In this document: positions 11,915 to 26,085 of the stretch, in pieces
Position numbering within the stretch: the stretch's first letter is position 1
How the letters are laid out: each line of letters opens with the position of its first letter
IMG/VR virus record: IMGVR_UViG_3300046453_000183
Location: 1-28,411 of that record
Source: a virus
Direction: 5' to 3' (one strand)
DNA: 28,411 bases
Notes under the pieces: generated by a model
Told to the model about the DNA's origin: nothing
The model's database searches: none
The model's input: the letters and a program-made list of their open reading frames with translations, nothing else
Position numbers and translations under genes: made by a program

Positions 11915-12139
11915 TTAGGCTCCGGCCGCTGGCGCCGCCTTGGCGTCCGCTTCGGCTTCCTTCAGCTCCTTCTTGAGCCGGACGACGCGCTCCGCCGGCG
12001 TCTCTGCAACAGGCGCGAGTTCGGCGAAGTCGGCATCGATGAGACGCTGCGCCTCTGCCACGTCGTCGAACGCCTTGGTGTCGCCCGGGGCGAGCGACAT
12101 CTCCGGGCCCGAAAGCCCGGTCTTCATCTTCAATTCCAT
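11915..12139 (-). CDS. Small hypothetical phage protein between capsid and connector
   Basis: A 74-aa protein. I choose ATG 12139 because GGAG lies eight bases upstream; the longer frame to 12184 lacks support. The sequence has an acidic middle (DVAEAQRLIDADFAELAP) and a charged coiled-coil-like C-terminus (ERVVRLKKELKEAEAD) ending in Ala. It contains no known motif. Small charged proteins of this kind commonly separate the capsid and gp6-like genes in alphaproteobacterial siphophages; the function is unknown. It lies just downstream of the capsid terminator, so it starts the next transcript unless there is read-through. Confidence 0.7.
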   Translation of the reverse strand: MELKMKTGLSGPEMSLAPGDTKAFDDVAEAQRLIDADFAELAPVAETPAERVVRLKKELKEAEADAKAAPAAGA

Positions 12140-14217: not shown

Positions 14218-15475
14218 CGGTCTCTTCCTTTTCGGTAGTGTCCCCGGGCGCCGTAGCGGCGACAGGCTGGGATAGGACTGTTCCAAGCGGCACGGTGGCG
14301 CCCTGGACGTAAAGGCGTTCGCCATTTGGCAGCGGCGGCCGCTCCTCGAGCGCTCGCGCCTCGTTGGGGGTGATCTGCCCCGTCTGGATAGCCCGCGCCA
14401 AGCCTTCGGTGCGACTCTTGAAGTCGCCGCGCTGCAGGCCCTCGAGATTATGTTTCACGCGCCTGGTCCGCCGGCGCTGACCGAACACCTTAAGGTTGGT
14501 CTCGTCCTCAAACTGTTTGGCGCGGTGGCTGATCAGATGCTTCACCAGCTGCAGGTCCTGCTGCTCGGTGTTGCTGAAGGTCCCCTTGGACAGGTCCTGC
14601 AAGAATACCGGCGGCAGGTTCCAGATGCGGGCCACCTCCTGGATCTGGAAGAGCCGAGCCTCGGTCATCTGGCCCTTGGCGGGATCAATGCCAATTGCCT
14701 TCAATGCATGCCCTGGGGGCATGCCGAAGAAGGGCGTGTTAGCCTTCTTCGCCATGTCGATCGCGCGCTTGATGTCGGCCTGGGCGCGCTTGAACGCGTC
14801 CGGCCCAGCTGGCAGCGGTCCTTCGAGTGCGAGAGGCGGCACACCGCCCCCGGCGAAGAACGTGCCCGCGAAATCATTCATGGCGATCGCCAAGGCAATC
14901 GCCTTGCGACCCTTGGCGATCGGGCCGTAGGCATCGATCTGGTTCGGCTTCAGCATGAACGTCACGTCGATCACGTCAGCGGCAGGATATTCCCGGCCGT
15001 CGAAGCGATAAACCTTTCTGCCGGCAACTCGGGCGACGGTGGTATACGCCGGATCCATCGGCCACAGCGCAACGGCGCGGGTGCCGACGCGTTCGATCCA
15101 GGTCATGCCGCGTCCGCCGGTGAACACCTGCTGCCAAGTGTATTTCCGCCAGTCGAAGCTACTCCATTCCGAGTTCGGCGCCTCGTTGAGCAACATCGCC
15201 AGGTCGCCATCTTCCCGCGTCGCCTGTCCGTCTCCATCCCGGAACACATGCAGCGGTAAGCTGGCAAGTGTGGCCGACAGGAAGTTTACAGCGTCGAAGA
15301 CCGCAGGAACCTCAAGCGCGCTGTCGATCGTCACTGGCGGCAATGCGCCGCGTGCGTCGAGCAAGCCGAAGTAGGAAAGCATATCCTCCGCGCTGGCGCT
15401 GACGGGGATCGTCGGGTTTTCTAGCGGATTTGCGGCGCGCTCTTCACGGCCGAGCATCCGGTTCCAGAAGCCCAT
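14198..15475 (-). CDS. HK97-family portal protein
   Basis: A 425-aa protein that forms the dodecameric DNA gate at one capsid vertex. ATG 15475 overlaps the large terminase stop (TGATG). Family markers in order: VPAVFDAVNFLSATLASLPL, then DWRKYTWQQVFTGGRGMTW, then DVIDVTFMLKPNQIDAYGP, then EVARIWNLPPVFLQDLSKG with SNTEQQDLQLVKH, and a C-terminal TGQITPNEARALEERPP. Length is typical. The acidic tail (TTEKEETDAGTEE) overlaps the start of the protease gene. Confidence 0.96.
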   Translation of the reverse strand: MGFWNRMLGREERAANPLENPTIPVSASAEDMLSYFGLLDARGALPPVTIDSALEVPAVFDAVNFLSATLASLPLHVFRDGDGQATREDGDLAMLLNEAPNSEWSSFDWRKYTWQQVFTGGRGMTWIERVGTRAVALWPMDPAYTTVARVAGRKVYRFDGREYPAADVIDVTFMLKPNQIDAYGPIAKGRKAIALAIAMNDFAGTFFAGGGVPPLALEGPLPAGPDAFKRAQADIKRAIDMAKKANTPFFGMPPGHALKAIGIDPAKGQMTEARLFQIQEVARIWNLPPVFLQDLSKGTFSNTEQQDLQLVKHLISHRAKQFEDETNLKVFGQRRRTRRVKHNLEGLQRGDFKSRTEGLARAIQTGQITPNEARALEERPPLPNGERLYVQGATVPLGTVLSQPVAATAPGDTTEKEETDAGTEE

Positions 15476-17262
15476 CAGCTCGGCACCATGCTGAATTCGG
15501 GGTCATCCCAGGGAGAGGTTGGCACTTCGTCTGCTTCCTTCCCGCCCATGGCGACGCCGAGCGCGCTCATGAGAGCGACCGGGTTATCGATTTTGAGATG
15601 CGCCTGCCCGTCCGGCTTGTTCGGGTAGACGTTGTCTTTTTTGTCGGGCTGGCCGACGACGTTGGAGATCTCCCACTCCATCACCGCGTCGCCGCCGTGA
15701 ATCATGCGGGTAGAGCGCATCAGCGCGTCGAGCTCCTTCATCGGCTCGCTCATGGTGAGCACCGTCGGTCGGTATTCCATTACAGGCACGCCGGTTTTCG
15801 CCAGCCGGGTCGATAGCTGCGTGGCCTGGAACGGATCGTAGGGCACCTGTTCGACTTGGAAGAGCGTCGCCGCTTCCTGGATCGCCTGCTCGATCTCGTC
15901 ATAGTCGACGATGTTTCCGGCCGTGACGTCGAGGAGGCCCTGCGCATCCCAGCCCTGATAGGCAGGTACGTCAGCCACCGTGTCTGCCGGCAGGAAGTAC
16001 CTGCCGATGCGGATGTACGGATCGTCCTTTGTCGCTTTCCCGCCCAGCGGCAGGAACAGGTACTCCAGCGCGGCAATGTCTATCTTCGACGCCAGATCGA
16101 GGCCGAGGATGACGCGGCGGCCGCGCAACCATTCGAGCGCGAGCGCCTGGCGCGGATCTGCAGGAATCCGGAGATCCGCACATTTACGCCAGGCCTCGAT
16201 GTCGAAGTACGCGGCCTTCGCTGACACCCACAGGTTCAGGTGCTTCGTCTTGAAGACGCCGACCTTGCGGGGAGTGGAGATCGCGTCCCGCTGCCGGGCC
16301 TTGAGGAAGTCCCCGGAAACCGAAATATCGTAGTTGGGATTGGCCTTGCGGAGCGCGGCCTCGGACTTCCAATCGTCGTCCTGGTCGATTGTGTACTCGA
16401 CGAAGAACGTCTCGTCGTCGAGCGGCGGCCCGCCATTGTGACCGATCCCGGCGATCTTTTTCCGCTCGTCCAGGATCGAAGCGTAACATGGGCCCGCGAG
16501 GTTATCGCCGGCAGTGGTGATGAGGACCTGCAGGGGCTGGTCGCGGGCGCCCATGCCGGTCTGCATGGTGTCGACCTGGCCGTCGTCGGCGTGCTCGTGA
16601 TACTCGTCGTGGATCGAGCAGCTGGGCGACTGGCCGTCGCCCGGGTCTCCAATGATCGTTTCGAACTTCGAGGCGTCGGCCTCGCGCATCAGGTTCTTGG
16701 CGTTGACGTCGATTCCGAAGCGCTTCAGCAGCGCCGGCGTGCGCATCGCCATCAAGCGCGCGGGCCCGAATACCTCCCATGCCTGCTTCTCGTTGGTCGC
16801 GCCCGAATAGACCTCGGCGCCGAACTCATTGTCCGCGCAGAACATGTACAAACCGATGCCGGCCGACAGAGCGGACTTGCCGTTCTTGCGTGGCACGACG
16901 ACGAACAGGCGGCGAAAGCGGCGCAACCCGCTCGCCTTGCGTAACCACCCGAACGTGCAGGCAATGATCCACACCTGCCACGGCTCGAGGCGGAGAGTCT
17001 CCTTGCTCCGGGCCCACTTGCCTTTCGAATGCGGCAGTCTCTCGATGAAGCGGCACGGCCGCGCCGCCCGGTCCGCGTCGAAGCGGTAGGGAAAGTCCTT
17101 TGACCGCTGCGCCTTCAGGTCGTCCAGGAAGCGTTGGCACTGCAGCTTGATCGACTTACAGGCAGGGATCTTCCCCTTGACCACGTCGCCGGCGTACTGG
17201 CGCGCTATCGCCCCGTAATTGCGTGCCTCCACATTAGAAGTCGTCGAACGCGCCGGCCTCAT
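15475..17262 (-). CDS. terL: Terminase large subunit (HK97/lambdoid type)
   Basis: A packaging ATPase and nuclease of up to 595 aa. ATG 17262 overlaps the small terminase by 29 bases; a GTG at 17232, just past that gene's TAA, would give 585 aa, and neither has a convincing ribosome binding site. Walker A is VVPRKNGKS (residues 122-130), Walker B is CSIHDEYHEH with Asp219-Glu220, the coupling motif is ITTAGD (249 on), and the nuclease motif is ILGLDLAS with Asp389. Residues 272-284 hold a GIGHNGGPPLDDE segment that looks inserted between the ATPase and nuclease halves. The family cuts concatemers at cos in HK97 relatives, with help from an HNH protein like the one at 17891. Confidence 0.96.
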   Translation of the reverse strand: MRPARSTTSNVEARNYGAIARQYAGDVVKGKIPACKSIKLQCQRFLDDLKAQRSKDFPYRFDADRAARPCRFIERLPHSKGKWARSKETLRLEPWQVWIIACTFGWLRKASGLRRFRRLFVVVPRKNGKSALSAGIGLYMFCADNEFGAEVYSGATNEKQAWEVFGPARLMAMRTPALLKRFGIDVNAKNLMREADASKFETIIGDPGDGQSPSCSIHDEYHEHADDGQVDTMQTGMGARDQPLQVLITTAGDNLAGPCYASILDERKKIAGIGHNGGPPLDDETFFVEYTIDQDDDWKSEAALRKANPNYDISVSGDFLKARQRDAISTPRKVGVFKTKHLNLWVSAKAAYFDIEAWRKCADLRIPADPRQALALEWLRGRRVILGLDLASKIDIAALEYLFLPLGGKATKDDPYIRIGRYFLPADTVADVPAYQGWDAQGLLDVTAGNIVDYDEIEQAIQEAATLFQVEQVPYDPFQATQLSTRLAKTGVPVMEYRPTVLTMSEPMKELDALMRSTRMIHGGDAVMEWEISNVVGQPDKKDNVYPNKPDGQAHLKIDNPVALMSALGVAMGGKEADEVPTSPWDDPEFSMVPS

Positions 17263-17743
17263 CCGGCTTGGCGGTGGCGATGCGAAGCGCGGCGGCCGGA
17301 TTGAGCATGAGCTCGCCGAGGAGCGACTGCGCGTGGCGCATGGCGTCCGAGAGCATCGTCACCTCCGGTCTTGCCCGCACCATGCGCGTCACGATCAGCT
17401 GCTCGGCGACACTTTTCGCCGACTCCGTCGTGTAGGTGTCGCCCTCCACCTCGAGCACGGCCTGGTACCGTTGGATTTGCTCAAGCCGCAGTGCGAGCAG
17501 CGCAACGTGCTCTGCAAAGTGAGGGTTCGAACGGCCTTGATCCTCGAGCATCTTCGCGATCGAGGCGAAGTGCAGTTGCGCCAGATCGGAGAGGTGCAGC
17601 GGGCAAATCATCGGCGCGGTGCTGGGATCTGCGCCAGGTACGGGAGTGACCTCCCGATCTTTGCGCTCGGTTCCCGCCAGCTTTTTCAACGCCGGCTCTT
17701 TCGGCCGGCGGCCGGCGCCGGAGCGCGATCCACCTCTTGCCAA
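17234..17743 (-). CDS. terS: Terminase small subunit (P27 family)
   Basis: A 169-aa DNA-recognition subunit of the packaging motor. Translation starts at TTG 17743, five bases after a strong AGGAGG. The N-terminus (SGAGRRPKEPALKKLAGTE) is the signature of P27-type small terminases, followed by the helical pattern DLAQLHFASIAKMLEDQG, LALRLEQIQRYQAVLE and SAKSVAEQLIVTRMVRAR. The acidic end DEAGAFDDF overlaps the large terminase start region. It lies next to the HNH gene and a non-coding interval that probably holds cos. Confidence 0.92.
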   Translation of the reverse strand: MARGGSRSGAGRRPKEPALKKLAGTERKDREVTPVPGADPSTAPMICPLHLSDLAQLHFASIAKMLEDQGRSNPHFAEHVALLALRLEQIQRYQAVLEVEGDTYTTESAKSVAEQLIVTRMVRARPEVTMLSDAMRHAQSLLGELMLNPAAALRIATAKPDEAGAFDDF

Positions 17744-17890
17744 AGCTACCTCCTACTTATAGCCAGGCAGCCGGCCGAATGCGCGCGCATCCCCGAAACT
17801 TTTTACCCTTTGAATTCGACCGCGTGCAAAACTTCTTAAACCACCGGTGTCCGCTCGAGATGGTCGGAGACCTGGACCCTCCCCCTCCCG
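17744..17890. other. Non-coding interval between HNH and terS, candidate cos region
   Basis: This 147-base gap is the only sizeable one in the packaging module. It includes a 12-bp perfect palindrome (ATGCGCGCGCAT, 17779-17790), an AT-rich tract (about 17793-17842) unlike its surroundings, and an eight-base palindrome CACCGGTG close to its left part. In HK97-like phages cos lies between the HNH gene and terS. Which palindrome, if any, is the cleavage site cannot be decided here. The terS ribosome binding site (AGGAGG) lies at the terS-proximal edge. Confidence 0.5.
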
Positions 17891-18202
17891 TCACCGCTCT
17901 CGGCCGCGACGCGCCTCGCTGAGCGTCTTCGCATCGTGGCAGGGCATGCAGAGGGCCTGTTTGTTGTTTCGGTCGTCACTACCGCCCGCGGCCAGGTTGA
18001 CGATATGGTCGACAACCTCGCTCGCCACATACAGGCCGTTCTCGAGGCAATGTCGGCAGAAGGGCTCGGCGGTGAGGACCTCGCGGCGATCGCGCTGACC
18101 AGCTCGGCCGCGCTTACGCTTGTCCTGGTGCAGCTGGGGGCGTTCCCATGGCTTCGGTTCACGCCAACCGGGCGGGCGGAACCGTGGCGCTTGCGAGGGC
18201 AT
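17891..18202 (-). CDS. HNH endonuclease (packaging-associated)
   Basis: A 103-aa HNH nuclease. ATG 18202 overlaps the upstream TGA by one base (TGATG). The basic N-terminus (RFRPPGWREPKPWER) leads to a zinc-ribbon HNH core: FCRHC with Cys49 and Cys52, VVDHI with Asp65-His66, RNNKQALCMPCHD with Asn80, Cys85, Cys88 and His89. In HK97 the equivalent gp74 stimulates terminase at cos. Placement directly before the probable cos region and terS supports the same job here rather than a homing nuclease. Confidence 0.9.
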   Translation of the reverse strand: MPSQAPRFRPPGWREPKPWERPQLHQDKRKRGRAGQRDRREVLTAEPFCRHCLENGLYVASEVVDHIVNLAAGGSDDRNNKQALCMPCHDAKTLSEARRGRER

Positions 18203-18471
18203 CAGCGCGGAAACAAGGTGACGACCAGATCGCCCTGGACGTGTTCGACTGCGAGGCATTCGCGCACGTCGTCGATGATATAATTGCCGTCATCGCCGAT
18301 CTTGTAGCGAGTGACTACGCCGACATCAGGGGCGGCGCCGAAGTCGAAGCCGATCACTGCGTGCTGCTCGATGCCGTCGAGGGTGATGATAAGACGGCGG
18401 CCGAAGTCGGGATCGTAGCCCCCGTCCCCAACGAAGAGGCGCTCTGGGATCCGGTCGGCCAGCGCGGACAT
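18202..18471 (-). CDS. Hypothetical 89-aa phage protein
   Basis: I choose ATG 18471, which overlaps the TGA of the DUF3164 gene by one base (TGATG); upstream sequence in frame is antisense-like. The protein reads as alternating beta strands (RLFVGDGGYDPDFGRRLIIT, then QHAVIGFDFG, then NYIIDDVRECLAVEHVQGD) with no membrane segment or Cys motif. I do not recognise a family. Its gene is coupled on both sides (DUF3164 and HNH), so it belongs to the packaging-proximal transcript. Confidence 0.7.
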   Translation of the reverse strand: MSALADRIPERLFVGDGGYDPDFGRRLIITLDGIEQHAVIGFDFGAAPDVGVVTRYKIGDDGNYIIDDVRECLAVEHVQGDLVVTLFPR

Positions 18472-19109
18472 CAGCCGACCGCAACGTCTATGGTGACCGC
18501 CGTCCACTGCGCTTGGGCATTGGCGCGGCGGTACATGCGCACATAGCGCTTCGAACCGATCACGCGCATGCTGTCGCGGATCGCGCGCATTGCTTCTTGC
18601 CAGCGCGTGTCCTCGATCTCGAGCCGCAGAAGGCCGAGCAGATCGTTGCGGTTGATCCGGCCTTGGTTGTCGACGTCGAACGCGCGATTGATGATCGCTT
18701 GGATCTCGGCGCCGCTCCCGGCGGACCATTCCCGCAAGCACTCGTCGACCAAGGTCTTCGCCACTTGCAGCTCGGGTCCGAACGAGATGTTCTCGCTGAC
18801 CTGCACGCAGATCTTGAGCGTGCCGTCGAAGCTGGTGAACGTCAGGTTGCCCTTCGATCCGCCACGCCGTGCGCCGTATTCCTGCTCGAGCAGCGACACG
18901 AAGTCGTCCATGTCGGCGAGCGTCTGCAGGCGGAATGCCGCTACCACCGCCGAGATGGGCAGCGCGGCACCGATGACTTTGCGGACGATCTCGTCCTCAA
19001 GCTTGTCGACCGCCTTCACGGCGCTTTCGGGGATGAGCCCGCCATCGCCTTTGATGAAGTAGACCTGGCCATCGATCGAGCGCGTGCCGGCGGATAGTTC
19101 GTCCGCCAT
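18471..19109 (-). CDS. DUF3164 family protein
   Basis: A 212-aa protein starting at ATG 19109. The sequence follows DUF3164 closely: VDKLEDEIVRKVIGAA, then MDDFVSLLEQEYGARRGGSK, then NLTFTSFDGTLKICVQVS, FGPELQVAKTLVDECLREW, EIQAIINRAFDVDNQGRINR, and a C-terminal RDSMRVIGSKRYVRMYRR. DUF3164 is best known from Mu-like transposable phages, where its role is not established; here there is no MuA or MuB nearby. The mix of long helices and a basic C-terminus suggests a nucleic-acid partner, but that is inference. Confidence 0.9.
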   Translation of the reverse strand: MADELSAGTRSIDGQVYFIKGDGGLIPESAVKAVDKLEDEIVRKVIGAALPISAVVAAFRLQTLADMDDFVSLLEQEYGARRGGSKGNLTFTSFDGTLKICVQVSENISFGPELQVAKTLVDECLREWSAGSGAEIQAIINRAFDVDNQGRINRNDLLGLLRLEIEDTRWQEAMRAIRDSMRVIGSKRYVRMYRRANAQAQWTAVTIDVAVG

Positions 19110-19111
19110 GG

Positions 19112-19357
19112 TCAACGGGCTCCCGCCGGGATATTGCGCCGGTGCGACGCTACGAGCGCGGTGAACGCGCCGGTACCTGCAAGCCGCTCGATCGGTGGGA
19201 TTTCGCCAGCGGGCGGAAAGTCGAGGGCGGCGGTAAGAGCAGCGCGGCCTTCCGCGATCTCGAGGATCGCCTGACGAAGCCAACGGCCAGAAACGGTCAC
19301 CGGGCTCTCGTCGGTAAGCTCAGCGGCAAGAACGCGGGCGCGATCGAGGTCAAGCAT
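19112..19357 (-). CDS. Hypothetical 81-aa phage protein
   Basis: ATG 19357 overlaps the upstream TGA (TGATG), and the stop lies two bases before the DUF3164 start. The first 45 residues are amphipathic helix (LDLDRARVLAAELT, WLRQAILEIAEGRAALTAAL); the C-terminal half has FPPAGEIPPIERL. No motif, signal or membrane segment is visible and I do not recognise it. The tight packing in the operon supports it being real. Confidence 0.65.
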   Translation of the reverse strand: MLDLDRARVLAAELTDESPVTVSGRWLRQAILEIAEGRAALTAALDFPPAGEIPPIERLAGTGAFTALVASHRRNIPAGAR

Positions 19358-19554
19358 CAGGTCGCCTTTCTGCAGCTGCGGAACGCCGCACGGACGCGGC
19401 GGCAGTGTTCGTCTGCAAGTTCCTCGAGGTCGTCGTAGCGATCGGTGCAGCGCACACCGGCACGCACTTCGGCTAGGATCCTGTCGAACGCCTCCTGCTC
19501 ACGATCGAGCAGGACCTCGAGGCTCTCGGGCCTCGCCGTCAGGCCGCTGCGCAT
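19357..19554 (-). CDS. Hypothetical 65-aa phage protein
   Basis: A short, charged, helical protein with two Cys residues in the middle and end (AGVRCTDRYDDL, DEHCRRVRAAFRSC). It starts at ATG 19554, 16 bases inside the preceding gene, and its stop overlaps the next start. I do not recognise a family. It may be part of the early-late junction regulators, but nothing in the sequence shows it. Confidence 0.6.
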   Translation of the reverse strand: MRSGLTARPESLEVLLDREQEAFDRILAEVRAGVRCTDRYDDLEELADEHCRRVRAAFRSCRKAT

Positions 19555-19829
19555 GCCTGCTTGCGGTAGACCGGGCAGTCGTTCTTCGACGGCCGAGGCA
19601 GGCGGTGGCGGCGCGCGAAAGGCAGCGCCGGCAGGGTGGCGGCCACAATGCGCACGGCTTCGCGGTGCACGATGCTGGCGGTGGCCAGGCCGGCCTTCAG
19701 GAGCCTGATGCCCTGCGCAGCGATCGCCGCCTCGATCCGCTTGTTGCGCATCGGGGTGAAGCCGATCGGAAGATCACGAGTGCGGCCGGTGTGGGCGAAG
19801 TCATATTCGCCCAAAAAGTTGTTCGTCAT
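19539..19829 (-). CDS. Hypothetical 96-aa phage protein, first gene after a terminator
   Basis: I choose ATG 19829 because GGAG lies five bases upstream. The protein starts MTNNFLGEYDFAHTG and has a basic, helical middle (FTPMRNKRIEAAIAAQGIRL) and a basic C-terminus with two Cys residues (KNDCPVYRKQAC). It carries no recognised domain. It is the first gene of the long minus-strand late transcript: the terminator at 19847-19883 ends just 17 bases before its start codon, so its expression requires read-through of, or a promoter within, that hairpin. Confidence 0.65.
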   Translation of the reverse strand: MTNNFLGEYDFAHTGRTRDLPIGFTPMRNKRIEAAIAAQGIRLLKAGLATASIVHREAVRIVAATLPALPFARRHRLPRPSKNDCPVYRKQACAAA

Positions 19830-19846
19830 GGATGCTCCGCGCATGG

Positions 19847-19883
19847 AAAAAGCCCGCCTGCCGGGGAATGGCAGACGGGCTTT
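19847..19883 (-). terminator. Intrinsic terminator separating regulatory and late operons
   Basis: A 12-base stem (19851-19862 with 19870-19881) around a seven-base loop, followed on the minus strand by a run of U residues (19847-19851). The single imperfect pair is G-U in the minus-strand RNA, again showing design for the minus transcript. It follows the 20275-19970 gene and precedes the first late gene. Confidence 0.8.
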
Positions 19884-19969
19884 CTCGGGTCAGACCGCTG
19901 CCGCCAGGGGCACTGGGCGGAGCTATCGCAGGGCTCGATATGACCGTTATCGTGACGGATCGGCAGGGT

Positions 19970-20275
19970 CTATTTTGCGCAGGGGGTGAGCGACGGGCAT
20001 CTTCCCATTTCGACGAGGCGGCAAAGCTCTGCTGCCTGATCTTCCGCCCAGACCTGCCCGACCAGCGAGAGACGCGCTTGCTCGAAACTCACATCAATGC
20101 TGGTGAGGCGCGGATTGTCTCGATGATCATAAATCAGACCAAGTGACCGAAGAGCCCGCATGAAGCCGGCGCGATGGGCCGCGTTGACCAGTTGATCGTA
20201 TCGACCTTGCGGGAAGACGCATTCAACCCAAGCTAGCGCCTTGCTCACACTAATCACGGCACAATGCCGTCTCAC
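19970..20275 (-). CDS. Hypothetical 101-aa phage protein
   Basis: Starts at GTG 20275, overlapping the preceding TGA (GTGA). It has an N-terminal mixed region (VSKALAWVECVFPQGRYDQL), a helical middle (AHRAGFMRALRSLGLIYD) and a C-terminal helix (QVWAEDQAAELCRLVEMG). I do not recognise a family. It is the last gene of the 21782-19970 operon, which ends at the terminator at 19847-19883. Confidence 0.6.
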   Translation of the reverse strand: MRRHCAVISVSKALAWVECVFPQGRYDQLVNAAHRAGFMRALRSLGLIYDHRDNPRLTSIDVSFEQARLSLVGQVWAEDQAAELCRLVEMGRCPSLTPCAK

Positions 20276-20910
20276 AGGATGCCTGCCTGTGCAGCGGCAA
20301 GCGAAGCGTGATCAATGTCCTTACGCACCTGGTCGTTCATCGCGTTCCACAGGTCCAAGGCGCTGATGAGCAGCTTCTTCGCCTTCGCGTTTCGCATCCG
20401 GAAATGCGCGGCAGCGCGAGTCACGCCGATGTCGTCCACCACCATCGCAAGCACCACTGCCGGCTCCGCGATTCGCTGGCGCCAGTGGGAATAGGTGACC
20501 TCAGCCCGCACGGCGCCGAGCCGTTCGAAGAACATGCCGTCGCCGGCACCACTTTGATCGACGCGGGTCTCGTAGCTCACGGTGCCGATCGTCACCGGTG
20601 CGGTGATGCGGGCATGGACGACCGCGATCGACACAGCGGCCGCGAGCTGGTCGGCATCGATGTCGCCGACGGTGAACAGCCGGGCGAGCGCGCCTTGGCG
20701 CATGGTCGCCGCTTTCGCATGCGTTTCGGGAGTGCCGTTGACCTTGTGGCCGTAGCTATCGCGCGCCTGGCGATTGGACTTGCGGAGATCTCGCTCTTCC
20801 CGGGCTAAACGCGGGTGGCGCTTTGCCCAGGCCTGATGCCTGGCATCGAGCGCCCGTGCTTCATCCCGCGCGCGCTGCTTTGCCGCGCGGCTCATCGTTG
20901 TAGTCGCCAC
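20272..20910 (-). CDS. Conserved alphaproteobacterial prophage protein of unknown function
   Basis: A 212-aa protein starting at GTG 20910, six bases after GGAGG; its start lies 50 bases inside the upstream gene. The first 55 residues are strongly basic (RAAKQRARDEARALDARH, REERDLRKSNRQARDSYGHK). Then comes KVNGTPETHAKAATMRQGAL, a central AAAVSIAVVHARI segment, and a C-terminal region with a helix-turn-helix-like look (IGVTRAAAHFRMRNAKAKKL). The pattern is familiar from sphingomonad prophages but has no assigned function to my knowledge. DNA or RNA binding is a guess from charge. Confidence 0.7.
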   Translation of the reverse strand: MATTTMSRAAKQRARDEARALDARHQAWAKRHPRLAREERDLRKSNRQARDSYGHKVNGTPETHAKAATMRQGALARLFTVGDIDADQLAAAVSIAVVHARITAPVTIGTVSYETRVDQSGAGDGMFFERLGAVRAEVTYSHWRQRIAEPAVVLAMVVDDIGVTRAAAHFRMRNAKAKKLLISALDLWNAMNDQVRKDIDHASLAAAQAGIL

Positions 20911-21322
20911 CCTGTACCTCCGCGAACCCGGGAGGAACGTAATCGAGCATGGGCCGCGCCGGCAGCGTCGAATGTGCGCAGGGGAGGCAGACGGTGAAGA
21001 TGTCCTCGTCCACGACGTAGCCGAGCTCGCGCAGCTGGCGGACGGCTTCGTCGCGCAGTGTGGGCAGGTAGAGGCCGCGCGGGCCCGGCCGGCGCAGCAG
21101 CTGACCGGAAGCGACCAGGGCCTTCACCAGTTGGCGCGCCCGGGTAGGACTGATGCCGAGGCCATTGGCGATCTCGCCGTATGATGGGCTGGATCCCCAC
21201 CGCGCGAGGTAATCGCGCACGAAAGCGAGCACCAGCAGGCGCCGGCTCGTCATCTCGGGTTTGAGCCGCATGCCGGCCCCGTTGATGTTCTGCAGCGACG
21301 CCGCCACGACCGCATGTTCCAT
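20861..21322 (-). CDS. LexA-type winged-helix DNA-binding protein without protease domain
   Basis: About 153 aa from ATG 21322 (an in-frame TTG at 21358 and the internal ATG at residue 18 are alternatives). Residues about 26-90 match the LexA N-terminal DNA-binding domain: LLVLAFVRDYLARWGSSPSY, then EIANGLGISPTRARQLVKAL, then a GQLLRRPGPRGLYLP wing. The S24 autoprotease domain of LexA is absent; instead there is a 60-residue C-terminus with a VCLPCAHS pair of Cys. It would bind DNA but could not be inactivated by RecA-driven self-cleavage. It sits downstream of the LexA-box promoter at 21785. Confidence 0.8.
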   Translation of the reverse strand: MEHAVVAASLQNINGAGMRLKPEMTSRRLLVLAFVRDYLARWGSSPSYGEIANGLGISPTRARQLVKALVASGQLLRRPGPRGLYLPTLRDEAVRQLRELGYVVDEDIFTVCLPCAHSTLPARPMLDYVPPGFAEVQGGDYNDEPRGKAARAG

Positions 21323-21438
21323 CCGAATTCCCACGCCCCCGCTCAAAGAACATAGCAAGAAAGAGTGGAATTAACAGTGCGTCGCTAGTGAGAGGCGTTT
21401 CATCGCTCGGGAATGCGCGAGCATCATTAGCGGACCGG

Positions 21439-21642
21439 TCAGCTAGGTGTGTCTTGGCGAAGGACGCCGAGCGACGCGCGAGCAAAGTCGCGCATTATCC
21501 TTTGCCAGTAGGGCCCTGCATTTTCCCATGGACGCCATTCGTTATCGCGGTCAGCCGCTTCTTGGGTGCCCCACATTGCCTCAGCCAGATGCTCGACGAG
21601 CGCGCTGTCGTCGTTCGCGCTGCAGATCCGGCAACGGCTCAT
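21439..21642 (-). CDS. Small Cys-containing protein of the LexA-box operon
   Basis: A 67-aa protein starting at ATG 21642, overlapping the stop of the 47-aa gene (ATGA). It begins MSRCRICSANDD, a CxxC pair, and has a helical middle (ALVEHLAEAMWGTQEAADRD) followed by WQRIMRDFARASLGVL. Similar short proteins with a D/N-W-W-R pattern occur in phages and bacterial accessory loci, without assigned function. Its expression is probably tied to the LexA box at 21785-21799. Confidence 0.7.
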   Translation of the reverse strand: MSRCRICSANDDSALVEHLAEAMWGTQEAADRDNEWRPWENAGPYWQRIMRDFARASLGVLRQDTPS

Positions 21643-21782
21643 GCACGCTTCGCTTGCTCAAGAAGCAGCCGGACGTTGGCGAACAGCAGCAACGTCGGAG
21701 TATCGGCGATCCCATTTTGCTGGGCCGCAATGTTCATTAGCCTCTCAAGATCGGCAGCGGGAAGGGTAACCGTGGGTTCCAT
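21639..21782 (-). CDS. 47-aa small protein under LexA-box promoter (candidate SOS-induced trigger)
   Basis: I choose ATG 21782: the -10 of a good promoter lies six bases upstream, inside a LexA box, and there is no ribosome binding site, so the message is probably leaderless. The protein has a short N-terminus (MEPTVTLPAADLERLMN) and a Leu-rich C-terminal helix (TPTLLLFANVRLLLEQAK). No motif is recognised. It is too short for an enzyme; small SOS-induced phage proteins of this kind include antirepressors such as 186 Tum, but similarity to any is not visible. An earlier in-frame start at 21845 is not supported. Confidence 0.65.
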   Translation of the reverse strand: MEPTVTLPAADLERLMNIAAQQNGIADTPTLLLFANVRLLLEQAKRA

Positions 21783-21784
21783 GA

Positions 21785-21799
21785 GAACATGATAGGAAC
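21785..21799 (-). promoter_or_regulatory. LexA (SOS) box, GTTC-N7-GTTC
   Basis: The minus strand reads GTTC CTATCAT GTTC, an exact match to the direct-repeat LexA operator described for Alphaproteobacteria. The -10 hexamer TATCAT (21789-21794) occupies the seven-base spacer, so LexA binding would block RNA polymerase directly. Confidence 0.8.
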
Positions 21800-21818
21800 A
21801 TAAGGGCGAGTCTATCAA
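21789..21818 (-). promoter_or_regulatory. Promoter of the LexA-box operon
   Basis: -35 TTGATA (21813-21818) and -10 TATCAT (21789-21794) on the minus strand, 18 bases apart. The predicted start is at or next to the A of ATG 21782, giving a leaderless message. The only candidate operator seen here is the LexA box. Confidence 0.7.
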
Positions 21819-21834
21819 GCCTAAACCGGATCGG

Positions 21835-21859
21835 GGCGGATACACCCTCTACCGCGATC
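21835..21859. repeat. Accessory-junction repeat, copy A (left-end core only)
   Basis: This copy matches the left end of the roughly 73-bp element seen at 22301, 23092 and 24541 (GGATACACCCTC then CCGCGATC). It lies between the LexA-box promoter and the end of the 81-aa gene. A reverse GCGGATA copy at about 21870-21877 gives it inverted ends about 43 bases apart. The right-end block GATACCCC is absent. Confidence 0.5.
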
Positions 21860-21868
21860 TCAGGCAGC

Positions 21869-22114
21869 CTATCCGCAGACAGCTCCCACGAACCATATCG
21901 GACGGCCCTCAGAATCGTGATCGCCCAGTTTTCTTGAGGTAAGGACACGCGAACCTTGCTCGATGATTACCATATCACCTCCGCCCCACCCCGGAAGCCC
22001 TGCGACAAATTCATCAGCGTCCGCCTTAGCTCTGCTGATCTCCATTGCTTCGGTTTCCATCTGAGCGAACTCAGTCTTTTGAACCCTAGAAATTACTTTT
22101 ATTAGAAGCGCCAT
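21869..22114 (-). CDS. Hypothetical 81-aa accessory protein
   Basis: Starts at ATG 22114 with AGGTGG seven bases upstream. It opens with a basic strand (MALLIKVISRVQKTEFAQME), a helix (EAMEISRAKADADEFVAGL), then GWGGGDMVIIEQGSRV and a short C-terminus ending in FVGAVCG. I do not recognise it. It is more AT-rich than the late genes and lies at the edge of the accessory interval, so recent acquisition is possible. Confidence 0.65.
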   Translation of the reverse strand: MALLIKVISRVQKTEFAQMETEAMEISRAKADADEFVAGLPGWGGGDMVIIEQGSRVLTSRKLGDHDSEGRPIWFVGAVCG

Positions 22115-22425
22115 GTTTTAACCACCTTTACTTGTCCTCTAAGTTTAGGTGATCTGTTTTCAAGCTGCAACCACGCAAAGTGCAGACCAATCGGTGGACG
22201 CTTACTTCTTCCGTCACGACTAACTACGCGTAAAAAAGTCACCTTGCTGAGAGCATTGCCACTCGGAGGGGGCAGGTTGGCAGGGTCTGGCCATCAGCGC
22301 GGCGGATACTCCATCCGCCCTGCCCCGCCGAAATGCTGCTGTTGCGGGGTTCAGATGCCCCAGTCGATACCCCAAAAATCACGGCGCCGATACGGATTTC
22401 ATACACACTATAATACGCATTGCGC
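22115..22425. other. Non-coding interval before hicA
   Basis: No credible gene on either strand. It contains full copy B of the junction repeat (22301-22373), an inverted ATACACAC copy of the hicA operator repeat (22401-22408) and a perfect TATAAT (22409-22414) without a good -35. The stretch 22115-22300 holds only AT-rich sequence in which I see no structure I can name. Confidence 0.6.
22301..22373. repeat. Accessory-junction repeat, copy B (73 bp)
   Basis: Starts GGCGGATACTCCATCCGCC, a perfect seven-base-pair hairpin, and ends GATACCCC, with a GATGCCCC copy 12 bases before the end. It shares both end blocks with copies C and D and has the same length as D, though the middle differs. It separates the 81-aa gene from hicA. 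Confidence 0.65.
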
Positions 22426-22463
22426 TTGTGACGCCCCATCTCCGTGTGTATAAACGTGTGTAT
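22401..22463. promoter_or_regulatory. hicA promoter with three copies of GTGTGTAT
   Basis: -35 TTGTGA (22426-22431) and -10 TATAAA (22449-22454), 17 bases apart, on the plus strand. The 8-mer GTGTGTAT occurs at 22444-22451, overlapping the -10, and 22456-22463, overlapping the start codon, with an inverted copy ATACACAC at 22401-22408. These are candidate sites for autorepression by HicB. The -10 ends seven bases before ATG 22462, so the message may be leaderless. Confidence 0.7.
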
Positions 22464-22644
22464 GGAAACGGATAGCAAGAAGATCGTGAAGAGGCTCTTG
22501 GACGAAGGGTTCGACCTCATTTCGGTGAAGGGGTCACACCATAAGTTCCGCAAGGGCGCCGTTACGATCATCGTTCCGCATCCGAAAAAGGACCTCCCGA
22601 TCGGCACGGCGAGGAACATAGCACGGGCAGCGGGCTGGCTATGA
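22462..22644 (+). CDS. hicA: HicA toxin (mRNA interferase)
   Basis: A 60-aa protein with the compact dsRNA-binding-like HicA fold. It starts at ATG 22462 (an in-frame GTG at 22444 lies inside the promoter and is unlikely). Diagnostic segments are KKIVKRLLDEGFDLISVKGS, then HHKFRKGAVTIIVPHPKKD and PIGTARNIARAAGW; the first His of SHH is the catalytic residue of the family. HicA cuts mRNA and is held by HicB, which follows directly, as usual for this order. The small module is typical of prophage stabilisation or defence. Confidence 0.93.
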   Translation: METDSKKIVKRLLDEGFDLISVKGSHHKFRKGAVTIIVPHPKKDLPIGTARNIARAAGWL

Positions 22645-22682
22645 CCAGTCCTCTGCCCGGCTCATCGAACAAAGGACCCGCC

Positions 22683-23072
22683 ATGCACTATTTCTACGCC
22701 GTCGCGCACAAGGATGAGGATAGCTCTTACGGCCTGACCTTTCCCACCATGCTCGGCCTCTTCGCGGCCGCCGACGAACTGGACGGCCTCGTGCCGGCCG
22801 CAGTCGAGGCTCTCTCGCTCTGGTTCGAAGATGCGGAGTTCGTTCCTCCTGCTTCTCTCGCTACAGTACGCGAGCTCGCCGCTGCAGATCTCGCGGACGG
22901 TGCGTTTCTTGTCGCCGTTCCGTGGGTGCAGCCGGTCGGGTTGAGCGAGCGAGTGAACATCACGCTCGACAAGGCGGTGCTCGCCGCGATCGACGCGGCG
23001 GCTGCTCACCGCCACCAGTCTCGTAGTGGCTTCATCTCCGATGCGGCTCGGGAAGCAATCGGACGAATTTAA
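22683..23072 (+). CDS. hicB: HicB antitoxin
   Basis: A 129-aa partner that blocks HicA and represses the operon. I choose ATG 22683, with AAGGA six bases upstream, over an ATG at 22641 that overlaps the hicA stop, because the family begins YFYAVAHKDEDSSYGLTFP. The N-terminal half is the HicB RNase-H-like fold, with the FPTMLGLFAAADELD segment. The C-terminal part (SERVNITLDKAVLAAIDAAA) is a ribbon-helix-helix DNA-binding domain, ending GFISDAAREAIGRI. The domain fits binding to the GTGTGTAT repeats at the promoter. Confidence 0.93.
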   Translation: MHYFYAVAHKDEDSSYGLTFPTMLGLFAAADELDGLVPAAVEALSLWFEDAEFVPPASLATVRELAAADLADGAFLVAVPWVQPVGLSERVNITLDKAVLAAIDAAAAHRHQSRSGFISDAAREAIGRI

Positions 23073-23091
23073 GGATTTTCTGAACTATCGC

Positions 23092-23163
23092 GGGGGATAC
23101 ACCCTCCGCCGCGGTCGTGGAGCGCCGTGCCCTCTCAAGCCTGGTACCTCAGGAGATACCCCC
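23092..23163. repeat. Accessory-junction repeat, copy C (72 bp)
   Basis: Starts GGGGGATACACCCTCCGCCG and ends GGTACC plus, eight bases on, GATACCCCC. It shares its left block with A and D, a TCTC...AGCC middle with D and its right block with B and D. It separates hicB from higA. Confidence 0.65.
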
Positions 23164-23166
23164 GGA

Positions 23167-23469
23167 TCAGGCCGCTTTGGCGATCCGGGTCACATCCAAA
23201 TCGTCGATATGCATGCGCGCCTGGGCAATGTCGTAAGCAGCCTGCATCCGCATCATCGTGTCAGCAGACATGCCGAACGCCTTCTCAAAGCGGAGAGCCA
23301 TGTCGGCCGACAGCGCGGCTTTGCCGTTGAGCAAGTTGCTCATGGCCACCCGGGTAACCCCCAGCGCCTCGGCAGCGCCAGACACGGTGAGACCGTATGG
23401 TTCGACGAGCTCCGTCCGAAGCCAAGGCCCCGGATGAACGAAGAACGAGGAATGAACCTTGATGGCCAT
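23167..23469 (-). CDS. higA: HigA antitoxin (XRE family)
   Basis: A 100-aa antitoxin; ATG 23469 overlaps the higB TGA by one base. The helix-turn-helix core is typical of HigA: a PGPWLRTELVEPYGLTVSGA start, AAEALGVTRVAMSNLLNGK, then ALSADMALRFEKAFGMSAD. Toxin before antitoxin is the HigBA order. The protein binds DNA and probably the inverted repeat upstream of higB (23757-23799). Confidence 0.92.
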   Translation of the reverse strand: MAIKVHSSFFVHPGPWLRTELVEPYGLTVSGAAEALGVTRVAMSNLLNGKAALSADMALRFEKAFGMSADTMMRMQAAYDIAQARMHIDDLDVTRIAKAA

Positions 23470-23750
23470 CAGTGATAATCCTCCAGATCGAGGTCGGCGA
23501 TCGCGTGCTCGTCGGCCATAGTGAAAGTGAGCCGCCAGTTACGAGTCACGGTCATCGTATAAGTTCCGGCCCGATCGCCGGTCAGGGCATGAAAGCCGAA
23601 GTTAGGCGGAACCGAGAGGTCGTCGACCGAGCGCGCGATCAGAATCAACGCGACCATTTTCTGGATCCGCTCTGGCTCCCTCACGCCCTTCGCGTTACCG
23701 GTTTCGATGAACCGGCGTAGCTTCTTGTCCCGAACACTCTCGATTTCCAT
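23469..23750 (-). CDS. higB: HigB toxin (RelE/HigB mRNA interferase)
   Basis: A 93-aa toxin starting at ATG 23750. The pattern of the HigB family is clear: RDKKLRRFIETGNAKGV, then RIQKMVALILIARSVDDL, then FGFHALTGDRAGTYTMTV and TRNWRLTFTM, with the family's usual C-terminal VDLEDYH-type end (ADLDLEDYH). It is a ribosome-dependent mRNA interferase neutralised by HigA. There is no ribosome binding site and its promoter -10 lies seven bases upstream, so the message may be leaderless. Confidence 0.92.
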   Translation of the reverse strand: MEIESVRDKKLRRFIETGNAKGVREPERIQKMVALILIARSVDDLSVPPNFGFHALTGDRAGTYTMTVTRNWRLTFTMADEHAIADLDLEDYH

Positions 23751-23806
23751 AACGATATGTATAGTATGGCTTTACACCCTGTCAAGCCATACTATACATC
23801 GAGAGT
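23736..23806. promoter_or_regulatory. higBA promoter and 16-bp inverted repeat operator
   Basis: On the minus strand -35 is TTGACA (23780-23785) and -10 TATACA (23758-23763), 16 bases apart. A perfect inverted repeat with 16-base arms (23757-23772 and 23784-23799) and an 11-base spacer covers the -10 and part of the -35. A second pair, ACTCTCGAT (23736-23744) and its complement (23798-23806), lies outside it and reaches the first codons of higB. HigA or the complex should bind here. Confidence 0.8.
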
Positions 23807-23953
23807 GATATACCCGCCGCCGCGGGCGAAGCGGCACGGCCTCATTTGCGCCCGGTCGTGTGAGAATGCGGGCGGGGTCAGCAATCGTACGAGAAGTCTG
23901 ATTTGGGTGGGTTTAAGACCGACCGCTTCTAGGTAGCTATGTGGTGCTAGCTG
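23807..23953. other. Non-coding interval upstream of higB with partial repeat copy E
   Basis: The first 21 bases (about 23807-23827) resemble the left block of the junction repeat (GATATACCC then CCGCCGCGG) but no right block follows within 75 bases. A short run of AGCTA/TAGCT repeats occurs near 23935-23960, close to the stop of the next gene. I see nothing else here. Confidence 0.45.
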
Positions 23954-24439
23954 TCATTGAGCTACGAAAACTTCGGCAGGAACCTCGACCGAGAACGGTT
24001 CCGCGAGCACGACTTCTCTCCTCCGTCTCAAAAGGCCAGATGTTCTAATCGTGTATGGAACATAAATGTGGCGCGAATAACCATCGCCTTCGAGATGGAC
24101 GCGAATGCCATCCGGTAAAGTCGGATTGTAAGCTGTCGGGATGTTCACATCGACAGCAACGGCAGATCCCGAAATGCTTTTGCTTTTTGCCTCATCGCGC
24201 AGTGCCTCTGACAAAAGCTGATACAGTTCGGCGGGGGCAGGGTGCTCCTCACCGTTCCACCCTGCAACGGCCTTAACCTCGCCCGCTAATGTTAGCGCGG
24301 CTCCGAACGGTAGGAACGAGGCGCTGTCTTCGAGCATCTGTTTCGCGAAATCGAGGCAATACGAGAATGCCGAGTGCAACTGCTCAGGATTTGCAACCAT
24401 ATACCCCGCCGTGATTGAATACCCTTCGAACACTGGCAC
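23954..24439 (-). CDS. Hypothetical accessory protein, candidate exclusion or defence gene
   Basis: A 161-aa protein from GTG 24439 (ATG at 24400 would give 148 aa; neither has a good ribosome binding site). The core pattern is FAKQMLEDSASFLPFGAAL, then EVKAVAGWNG, then ELYQLLSEALRDEAKSKSI, VAVDVNIPTAYN and DGIRVHLEGDG, ending with a VPYT strand. I have the impression of a widespread soluble hypothetical family with this FGAAL...DV...DGI layout, but no function is assigned. It sits in the lysogeny-side interval between repressor and toxin-antitoxin genes, where phage exclusion and lysogenic conversion genes are often found. Confidence 0.7.
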   Translation of the reverse strand: MPVFEGYSITAGYMVANPEQLHSAFSYCLDFAKQMLEDSASFLPFGAALTLAGEVKAVAGWNGEEHPAPAELYQLLSEALRDEAKSKSISGSAVAVDVNIPTAYNPTLPDGIRVHLEGDGYSRHIYVPYTIRTSGLLRRRREVVLAEPFSVEVPAEVFVAQ

Positions 24440-24540
24440 GATGAACCAACGGCGGCAATTGGCATGATAGCGGGGCTAGTGGAACGGCCGCCATGGGGCG
24501 TCTGTGGCCGGTCTGCTTTGGCAAACGCATTGATGAACAT

Positions 24541-24613
24541 GGCGGATATTCCCTCCGCCGCGATCACGAGAACACGCCACTCTCGTAGCCTAACGTACCC
24601 CCGTGATACCCCC
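24541..24613. repeat. Accessory-junction repeat, copy D (73 bp)
   Basis: Starts GGCGGATATTCCCTCCGCC (six-base-pair hairpin) and ends with two copies of a TACCCCC block: GTACCCCC then GATACCCCC, 11 bases apart. It shares its left block with A and C, a TCTC...AGCC middle with C and its right block with B and C. It separates the 161-aa gene from the membrane-anchored gene. The flank 24440-24540 holds no gene I can support. Confidence 0.65.
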
Positions 24614-24625
24614 TAAGAAACCGGC

Positions 24626-25252
24626 TTATTTCCAGTCCAAACCAGCTGTTTCGAAGACGAACTGCTGCCGGCCTCGCTGAAAGAACTCCGCCTCGATCAC
24701 GACGCGTTTGGACGCCTTAAGTTTCTTGAGGAATGAGTTGGGGCCTTTGACAAATCCATAATTCGAGCTGCCGTCAGAGGCGCCGCTGCATTTGTAATTC
24801 TGAATAGGGCCGCCATCGAACTTCGCGCTCAGGTAATTTTCCGTGAAGCTGTCGCAGAGGATTTGTCCCTTCTCGACCGATAGTACCACGTCCAGGCCAG
24901 CTTTGGGATCGCGCTGCACCGTGAGGACGCCGCTTTGCTCGCCATATGGAAACTCAAGGTCGATCGAATTTTCAGACGTCAGCCTGGCCATACGGGTCTC
25001 AGTGCCGCGCATCTCGTCCTTGTAGTCGCTGTAAGCCCATTTCGACTTTGAGGACCCATCCTCGTCGGCGCTGGCTGGCGTTGTAGCAGCTGCCGCTTTC
25101 TCGTCCTGGGCTTTGGGCTTCTCGCTATCTCGGGGTGCCGGTGCGAGCTTTCCGATCACTATCAACCCAACAAACACCGCGAGAGCTATTTGCCACCACC
25201 GCCACTTCTTCTTTGCCGGTGCCGATGCCCCCGCATCACTTTCCTTCGTCAT
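24626..25252 (-). CDS. Membrane-anchored accessory protein, possible exclusion factor
   Basis: A 208-aa protein from ATG 25252, with GGGG-type purines upstream. The first 19 residues are charged and basic before a single membrane segment (WQIALAVFVGLIVIGKL, residues 20-36), then a low-complexity acidic/Ala-rich stretch (37-70), and a globular beta-rich domain (71-208) containing SENSIDLEFPYG, KGQILCDSFTENYL, KFDGGPIQNYKC and EAEFFQRGRQQFVF. The N-in topology would place this domain in the periplasm; Cys133 and Cys155 could form a disulfide. It is the gene nearest the repressor on the lysogeny side, the position of rexAB in lambda. Function is inference. Confidence 0.75.
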   Translation of the reverse strand: MTKESDAGASAPAKKKWRWWQIALAVFVGLIVIGKLAPAPRDSEKPKAQDEKAAAATTPASADEDGSSKSKWAYSDYKDEMRGTETRMARLTSENSIDLEFPYGEQSGVLTVQRDPKAGLDVVLSVEKGQILCDSFTENYLSAKFDGGPIQNYKCSGASDGSSNYGFVKGPNSFLKKLKASKRVVIEAEFFQRGRQQFVFETAGLDWK

Positions 25253-25330
25253 TGCCCCGTCGCCCCTTCGACAAATCGATTGCACTACCTAACCGAAACT
25301 GATTGACCCCGCCCCCATGGCTAAATGCCC

Positions 25331-25681
25331 CTATCCATGGACACTAGGCGACCGCGCGCTGGTGGCCAGTGATCGAATTAGGAGCGTCGCAGCGGAGCGC
25401 TCAGCCGGTGGCAAATTCCGGAATAGCTCGACGATTTGTCGTTCCTCGCTGGTGATCTCGAAGTCGGGACTTTCGCCTGCGGGATCGTCTGTTTCACCTG
25501 ACAGGAAGGCGGAGGTCACCCGAAGCTCGCGAGCGATTAAGTGCAGCTTTGTTGTGGAGCGCTGCTCACCGCGAATCAGACCGTTGATAGTGCTTTGAGT
25601 CACGCCGATTCGGCGCGCGAGTTCTGATTGCGAAATGCCAATGACCGCCAGCTGGTCCTTAATTCGATCGCCGAGGCCCAT
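25331..25681 (-). CDS. CI-like XRE repressor without S24 protease domain
   Basis: A 116-aa repressor. I choose ATG 25681 (MGLGDRIKDQLAVIGIS), because the longer frame to 25738 crosses the operator region. Residues about 17-38 are the helix-turn-helix (SQSELARRIGVTQSTINGLI), and residues 75-105 a helical C-terminus (EERQIVELFRNLPPAERSAA) typical of oligomerising short phage repressors. It lacks the LexA/CI-type autoprotease. It faces the Cro-like gene across 83 bases and probably maintains lysogeny. A short repressor without protease needs another route to SOS induction. Confidence 0.88.
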   Translation of the reverse strand: MGLGDRIKDQLAVIGISQSELARRIGVTQSTINGLIRGEQRSTTKLHLIARELRVTSAFLSGETDDPAGESPDFEITSEERQIVELFRNLPPAERSAATLLIRSLATSARSPSVHG

Positions 25682-25774
25682 GAAACCGCTATCTAACGAA
25701 AAGGCGGTAGAGCCAATGCAAGTATTCCGTTGACACATCTATCGGCGCAGCGTTAGCAAACGGAATGCCGATAG
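25682..25774. promoter_or_regulatory. Immunity operator region between CI-like and Cro-like genes
   Basis: Perfect inverted repeats interlock here: ATTCCGTT (25724-25731) with AACGGAAT (25759-25766), and CTATCGGC (25739-25746) with GCCGATAG (25767-25774). CTAACG (25694-25699) is also inverted relative to CGTTAG (25752-25757). A plus-strand -35 TTGACA (25730-25735) lies 17-18 bases before a weak -10 (TTAGCA or TAGCAA near 25753-25759). The right arms overlap the Cro-like start codon at 25765. The promoter for the repressor cannot be fixed. Confidence 0.65.
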
Positions 25775-26085
25775 AGCACTCATCCAGTACGCCTTTAGCG
25801 CGCGCCGTTCGCTTGGTTGGATCTCAGTCGGCTTTTGCGCGCCTGATCGGTAAGCGACAATCGGTTGTCCATGGATGGTTGCGCGAGGACAAGCCGCTTC
25901 CGATCGAACTGGTGAGGGTGGTTTCTGAGGCGACGGGCATCCCGAAGAACGAATTACGGCCAGACCTGTCCGACATTTTAGATCCTGAGCCCCCCATGCC
26001 CGGCACCCCGCCGGGCGGTACGCCGGCGGAGCCCACCCAACGCTCCGCCGGCGTCCCTGAGTCGCTGAAGGGGCTTCAGTCGTGA
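25765..26085 (+). CDS. Cro-like regulator (YdaS-type helix-turn-helix)
   Basis: A 106-aa protein starting at ATG 25765, with no ribosome binding site. Residues 10-65 match YdaS/Cro-like proteins: TPLARAVRLVGSQSAFARLI, then GKRQSVVHGWLREDKPLPI, then LVRVVSEATGIPKNELRPDL. YdaS-type proteins bind DNA as Cro does and often neighbour YdaT. The Pro/Gly-rich C-terminus is extended and unlike the family. It lies opposite the CI-like repressor, so it is the probable lytic switch protein. Confidence 0.88.
   Translation: MPIEHSSSTPLARAVRLVGSQSAFARLIGKRQSVVHGWLREDKPLPIELVRVVSEATGIPKNELRPDLSDILDPEPPMPGTPPGGTPAEPTQRSAGVPESLKGLQS

Follow-up and report, generated by a model that had tools for sequence, protein, structure and literature searches.

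A 47- and 67-aa gene pair behind a LexA box in a phage of probable sphingomonad host is probably mobile SOS-timed cargo

The window, that is, the whole stretch of DNA analysed here, corresponds to a virus record in IMG/VR and is 28,411 bases long. Its minus strand encodes a tape measure protein together with a head and packaging set of HK97-like type. Since no end repeats are found, the window is probably a phage fragment; its host very probably belongs to Sphingomonadales. The features discussed here are as follows.

20861-21322, minus strand: winged helix-turn-helix (wHTH) protein with a LexA-DNA-binding-domain-like fold (Pfam LexA_DNA_bind, 3.7e-5)
21348-21362, minus strand: core operon promoter element TTTC-N7-GTTC, one mismatch from the LexA box
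21431-25750: variable region, repressor included, which separates the phage core operon from the repressor/Cro switch
21439-21642, minus strand: gene for the 67-aa CxxC ('CRIC') protein, the conserved cassette member, whose start overlaps the stop of the 47-aa gene (ATGA)
21639-21782, minus strand: 47-aa gene, predicted leaderless, which opens the operon and is its variable member (L007 has a copy that is 68% identical)
21785-21799, minus strand: putative LexA (SOS) box GTTC-CTATCAT-GTTC, an exact match, found again in relatives ahead of members of the 67-aa family
21789-21794, minus strand: -10 element TATCAT, within the spacer of the LexA box (promoter scan; identical layout in L007)
21813-21818, minus strand: -35 element TTGATA (promoter scan)
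21830-21859: one of five copies of a palindromic repeat in the cargo region, immediately upstream of the cassette promoter
25331-25681, minus strand: CI-like repressor of 116 aa with HTH_3 only and no S24 protease domain
25765-26085, plus strand: Cro/YdaS-like gene, divergent from the repressor

The variable region contains the cassette of the 47-aa and 67-aa genes, a HicAB-like toxin-antitoxin pair (22444-23072, plus strand), a HigBA-like toxin-antitoxin pair (23167-23750, minus strand), and other small genes. An imperfect palindrome with a consensus of about GATCGCGGCGGATACACCCTCCGCCGCGATC is found in this region in five copies of the same orientation (at 21830, 22296, 23087, 23798, and 24536), which separate its gene units. 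The palindrome also exists in the corresponding region of L065, L005, L066, L067, L069, and L057, and its orientation relative to the repressor is constant wherever the examined stretch includes the repressor. These palindromes may mark module boundaries or act as stoperator-like sites. The repressor was described in the initial annotation as a protein of 116 aa without S24 domain; this description holds, and HTH_3 is present. A partner protease of the ImmA type beside the repressor was considered and rejected. The next gene on the same strand (24626-25285) encodes, as judged by eye, a membrane-anchored small protein, and its sole PHROG match is a family of unknown function.

The box had been noted as an exact GTTCCTATCATGTTC at 21785-21799 (minus strand) with the -10 element in its spacer, and it is found again by the box and promoter scans. 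The cassette promoter, TTGATA-N18-TATCAT, has 10 of 12 matches in the promoter scan, and the minus strand reads in order TTGATA-N18-TATCAT-GTTCTC-ATG. The 47-aa frame (21782-21639) is also as first reported, with its ATG six bases past the -10 element and no ribosome binding site. Because of this short distance, the mRNA of the 47-aa gene is predicted to be leaderless. The same leaderless layout is found in L007 (the L007/G404 contig); apart from the window, this is the one phage in which the 47+67-aa pair was found. Codon-position differences between the two copies are 14/6/24, indicating that the 47-aa gene is coding and under purifying selection. Its protein is modelled as an extended N-terminus followed by two helices (pLDDT 77), and no significant fold match is found for the model. 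The possibility of a ribbon-helix-helix protein was rejected: there is a weak resemblance in sequence and model layout, but no profile or fold match. A degraded copy of the 47-aa gene is found in Novosphingobium sp. AP12 (L082, G001:C21:16643-16771), where the start codon and both half-sites of the box have apparently decayed.

Conservation of the 47-aa frame in related prophages had been proposed as a check. The frame is kept in L007/L008, and the first gene of the cassette differs at other loci. It encodes 81-91 aa in L016 and L006, 93 aa in L015, and 116+57 aa on the plasmid pKN1. It is weakly YozE-like in L046 and L050, and it is absent in L009, L013, and L018.

The second gene of the operon, which was not part of the initial finding, is better conserved than its 47-aa partner. 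The 67-aa protein begins with MSRCRICSAND. Members of its family are carried by Novosphingobium, Croceibacterium, Sphingomonas, and Sphingobium on prophages, chromosomes, and one plasmid, and the cassette genes are accessory and mobile, being found in about 2% of the sampled Sphingomonadales genomes. On the plasmid, Sphingobium pKN1, the family member has its own LexA box, and no phage gene is annotated near it. In several cases, the locus adjoins lysis or recombinase genes at the end of a prophage (the recombinases and some of the lysis genes were assigned by eye). Searches of Pfam, PHROGs, and PDB sequences give no match for the family, and no relative of the 67-aa protein is found among INPHARED phages. 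The protein is modelled as a two-helix hairpin (mean pLDDT 83), the CxxC end being less certain. The best Foldseek matches of this model are RyR domains, but they are not significant (probability 0.84, E 0.93, TM about 0.57). Assignment to the RyR domain (PF02026) is not supported by sequence profiles: there is no Pfam match, and the hhalign probability against phage RyR proteins is about 1%. An SRAP gene (SOS response associated peptidase; L050:11006-11650, minus strand) exists a few kb from a family member and has a tandem GTTC-N7-GTTC-N7-GTTC box (boxes at 11919 and 11930). A second SRAP gene is found near a broken 67-aa copy on pHR1a.

An exact GTTC-N7-GTTC in either orientation is found within 600 bp upstream in 14 of 20 loci of the 67-aa family, compared with 1.7% when 600-bp stretches are taken at random from DNA of that kind. 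This count covers the 20 loci with a recognisable 67-aa member, several of whose records are fragments; L049 was read separately. The promoters of the family belong to about nine lineages that are poorly alignable with each other, so the box is conserved in relatives, as the initial annotation had asked, across promoters that are otherwise unlike. Six loci have no exact box within 600 bp (L045, L046, L047, L049, L051, and L054). L046 has a box 806 bp upstream and L047 a one-mismatch site at -36. L045 has an intact family member and L049 a divergent one, both without a box, and the copies in L051 and L054 are broken. On pHR1a, where the copy is broken too, the box is retained.

GTTC-N7-GTTC is the published LexA box of Alphaproteobacteria (PMC8565304), and the lexA promoters of four genomes that carry the family also have it. 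SOS control of the 47+67-aa operon, as read from these sequences, is well supported because the box recurs in most relatives and the same box is found at host lexA. The LexA control proposed at the outset is thus strengthened by boxes before the same family across sphingomonad elements. While the box is that of the alphaproteobacterial SOS regulon (PMC8565304), the cassette genes differ from that regulon in being accessory and mobile.

The closest kin of the window is L065 (contig L004), which is 88-94% identical around the cassette and does not have the cassette. DNA homology between the two covers 14774-19987 (94%) and 20272-21430 (89%) and then resumes at 25751; between 21430 and 25751, one short repeat is the only homology. 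The repressor of L065 is protease-less and 56% identical to that of the window. In the window's lineage, S24 repressors are found in L066, L068, and L071, and repressors without S24 in the window, L004, L067, and L069. Within the stretches examined, the cassette is found only in the window. The repressors of L067 and L069 end in a common LHDxQHTYRG tail. Outside the lineage, two carriers have repressors with S24. In L007/G404, CI is an HTH-S24 protein, and a small HTH gene lies divergently beside it. The Sphingomonas prophage of G004, which is P2-like, has the 67-aa gene and an HTH-S24 repressor; the repressor and the cassette are separated by genes for the tail sheath, tape measure, baseplate, terminase, and major head protein.

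The 47+67-aa pair is probably a LexA-repressed mobile cargo (moron) operon. Counted for this reading are the exact boxes at 14 of 20 family loci and at four host lexA genes, the leaderless layout shared with L007, the purifying pattern in the 47-aa gene, the absence of the cassette from the near-identical L065, the presence of the family on pKN1, its co-occurrence with S24 repressors in two other prophages, and the variation of the first gene of the cassette. Counted against it are L045 and L049 without a box, the mismatch in L047, and the distant box of L046. In a lysogen, host LexA bound to GTTC-N7-GTTC would cover the -10 element. Upon DNA damage, LexA would be cleaved and a leaderless mRNA would start at the 47-aa ATG. 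The 67-aa CxxC protein would be made next, by translational coupling with the 47-aa gene. This protein would be the conserved effector, and the cassette would move among unlike sphingomonad prophages, a plasmid, and chromosomes while its first gene is exchanged. Other prophage cargo timed by SOS suggests, by analogy, that the most likely role of the cassette is action on the damaged host. The 67-aa protein may affect SOS, replication, or division, like DinI-like or division-inhibitor morons elsewhere. More tentatively, the 67-aa family could serve sphingomonad phages and plasmids alike as a general SOS effector that is independent of the element and has swappable partners, aiding escape of the element via the damaged host or across prophages.

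Another possibility is that the whole phage lineage is SOS-induced elsewhere. LexA would repress the wHTH core operon via TTC-N5-TAT-GTTC, and the cassette would be an extra copy of this control. The wHTH gene is the first gene of the core operon, outside the cassette, and is 99% identical in the cassette-less L004. The element before it has LexA-box spacing in 13 phages (the window and 12 relatives), its TT is invariant, and the C of the first TTC is kept in 11; several exact host boxes likewise end in TATGTTC. However, G is not conserved at the opening position of the first half-site, and part of the conservation is explained by an ordinary -10 element (TATGTT). Direct LexA control of the core operon is somewhat doubtful, though it deserves more credit than the readings that follow. 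Autoregulation of the operon by its own LexA-like protein was rejected: the recognition helix of the wHTH protein varies while the promoter site does not, so that the element is more likely read by a host factor.

The initial annotation suggested that the operon is a Tum-like trigger of the prophage. In such a role, the 47-aa or the 67-aa protein would bind a non-cleavable repressor, that of its own or of another prophage, and release it after SOS. The cassette does encode small proteins in a prophage with a protease-less repressor, and LexA control is suggested by the conserved box. The antirepressor of Gifsy is likewise a small protein of a LexA-controlled operon, and such a protein can act in trans on other prophages (PMC3121763). 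If the cassette substituted for the protease, however, it should covary with the loss of S24, and no covariation is seen. Protease-less repressors are found in the cassette-less L065, L067, and L069 as well, the cassette-bearing G404 and G004 have S24 repressors, 68%-identical 47-aa proteins (window and L007) accompany unlike repressors, and the 67-aa family also exists on a plasmid. Since the cases are few and some records are fragments, these observations only lower the antirepressor reading, which we regard as improbable. The cassette is thus probably not the trigger that wakes this prophage.

That the box at 21785-21799 arose by chance and regulates nothing is very improbable: the window has three exact GTTC-N7-GTTC against 0.91 expected (three or more in 6 of 100 shuffles), so that one box alone is weak evidence, but this box is significant because it keeps its place ahead of the same gene although the promoters are unlike. 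The two further exact boxes, at 20924 (wHTH gene) and 23443 (higA), are inside coding sequence and were set aside as chance.

Small-protein prophage operons under a LexA box are known from Gifsy, where dinI is found with an antirepressor gene (GfoA/GftA; PMC3121763). The Gifsy operons and the cassette each have one common SOS protein and one variable partner. Unlike the Gifsy operons, the cassette has no sequence match to DinI, its variable first gene does not track the repressor type, its family is also found on a plasmid, and the LexA box and the host group differ. Tum of coliphage 186 is likewise encoded by a LexA-controlled small gene of a temperate phage whose repressor is not of the self-cleaving kind. 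Tum has 146 aa, the second half being DinI-like (PMC3121763), whereas the cassette proteins have 47 and 67 aa and no DinI-like similarity, and the cassette is optional. The lack of visible Tum homology noted at first extends to both proteins: neither resembles Tum or DinI in Pfam and PHROGs.

In a full-text literature search, no paper was found that combines Sphingomonas, SOS box, LexA, and prophage. Two things joined in the initial annotation come apart here: SOS control of the operon is supported, and triggering of the prophage does not follow from it. Kept behind LexA boxes by elements that are unrelated, the 67-aa family offers a clear target for asking what damage-timed expression gives the mobile elements of Sphingomonadales.
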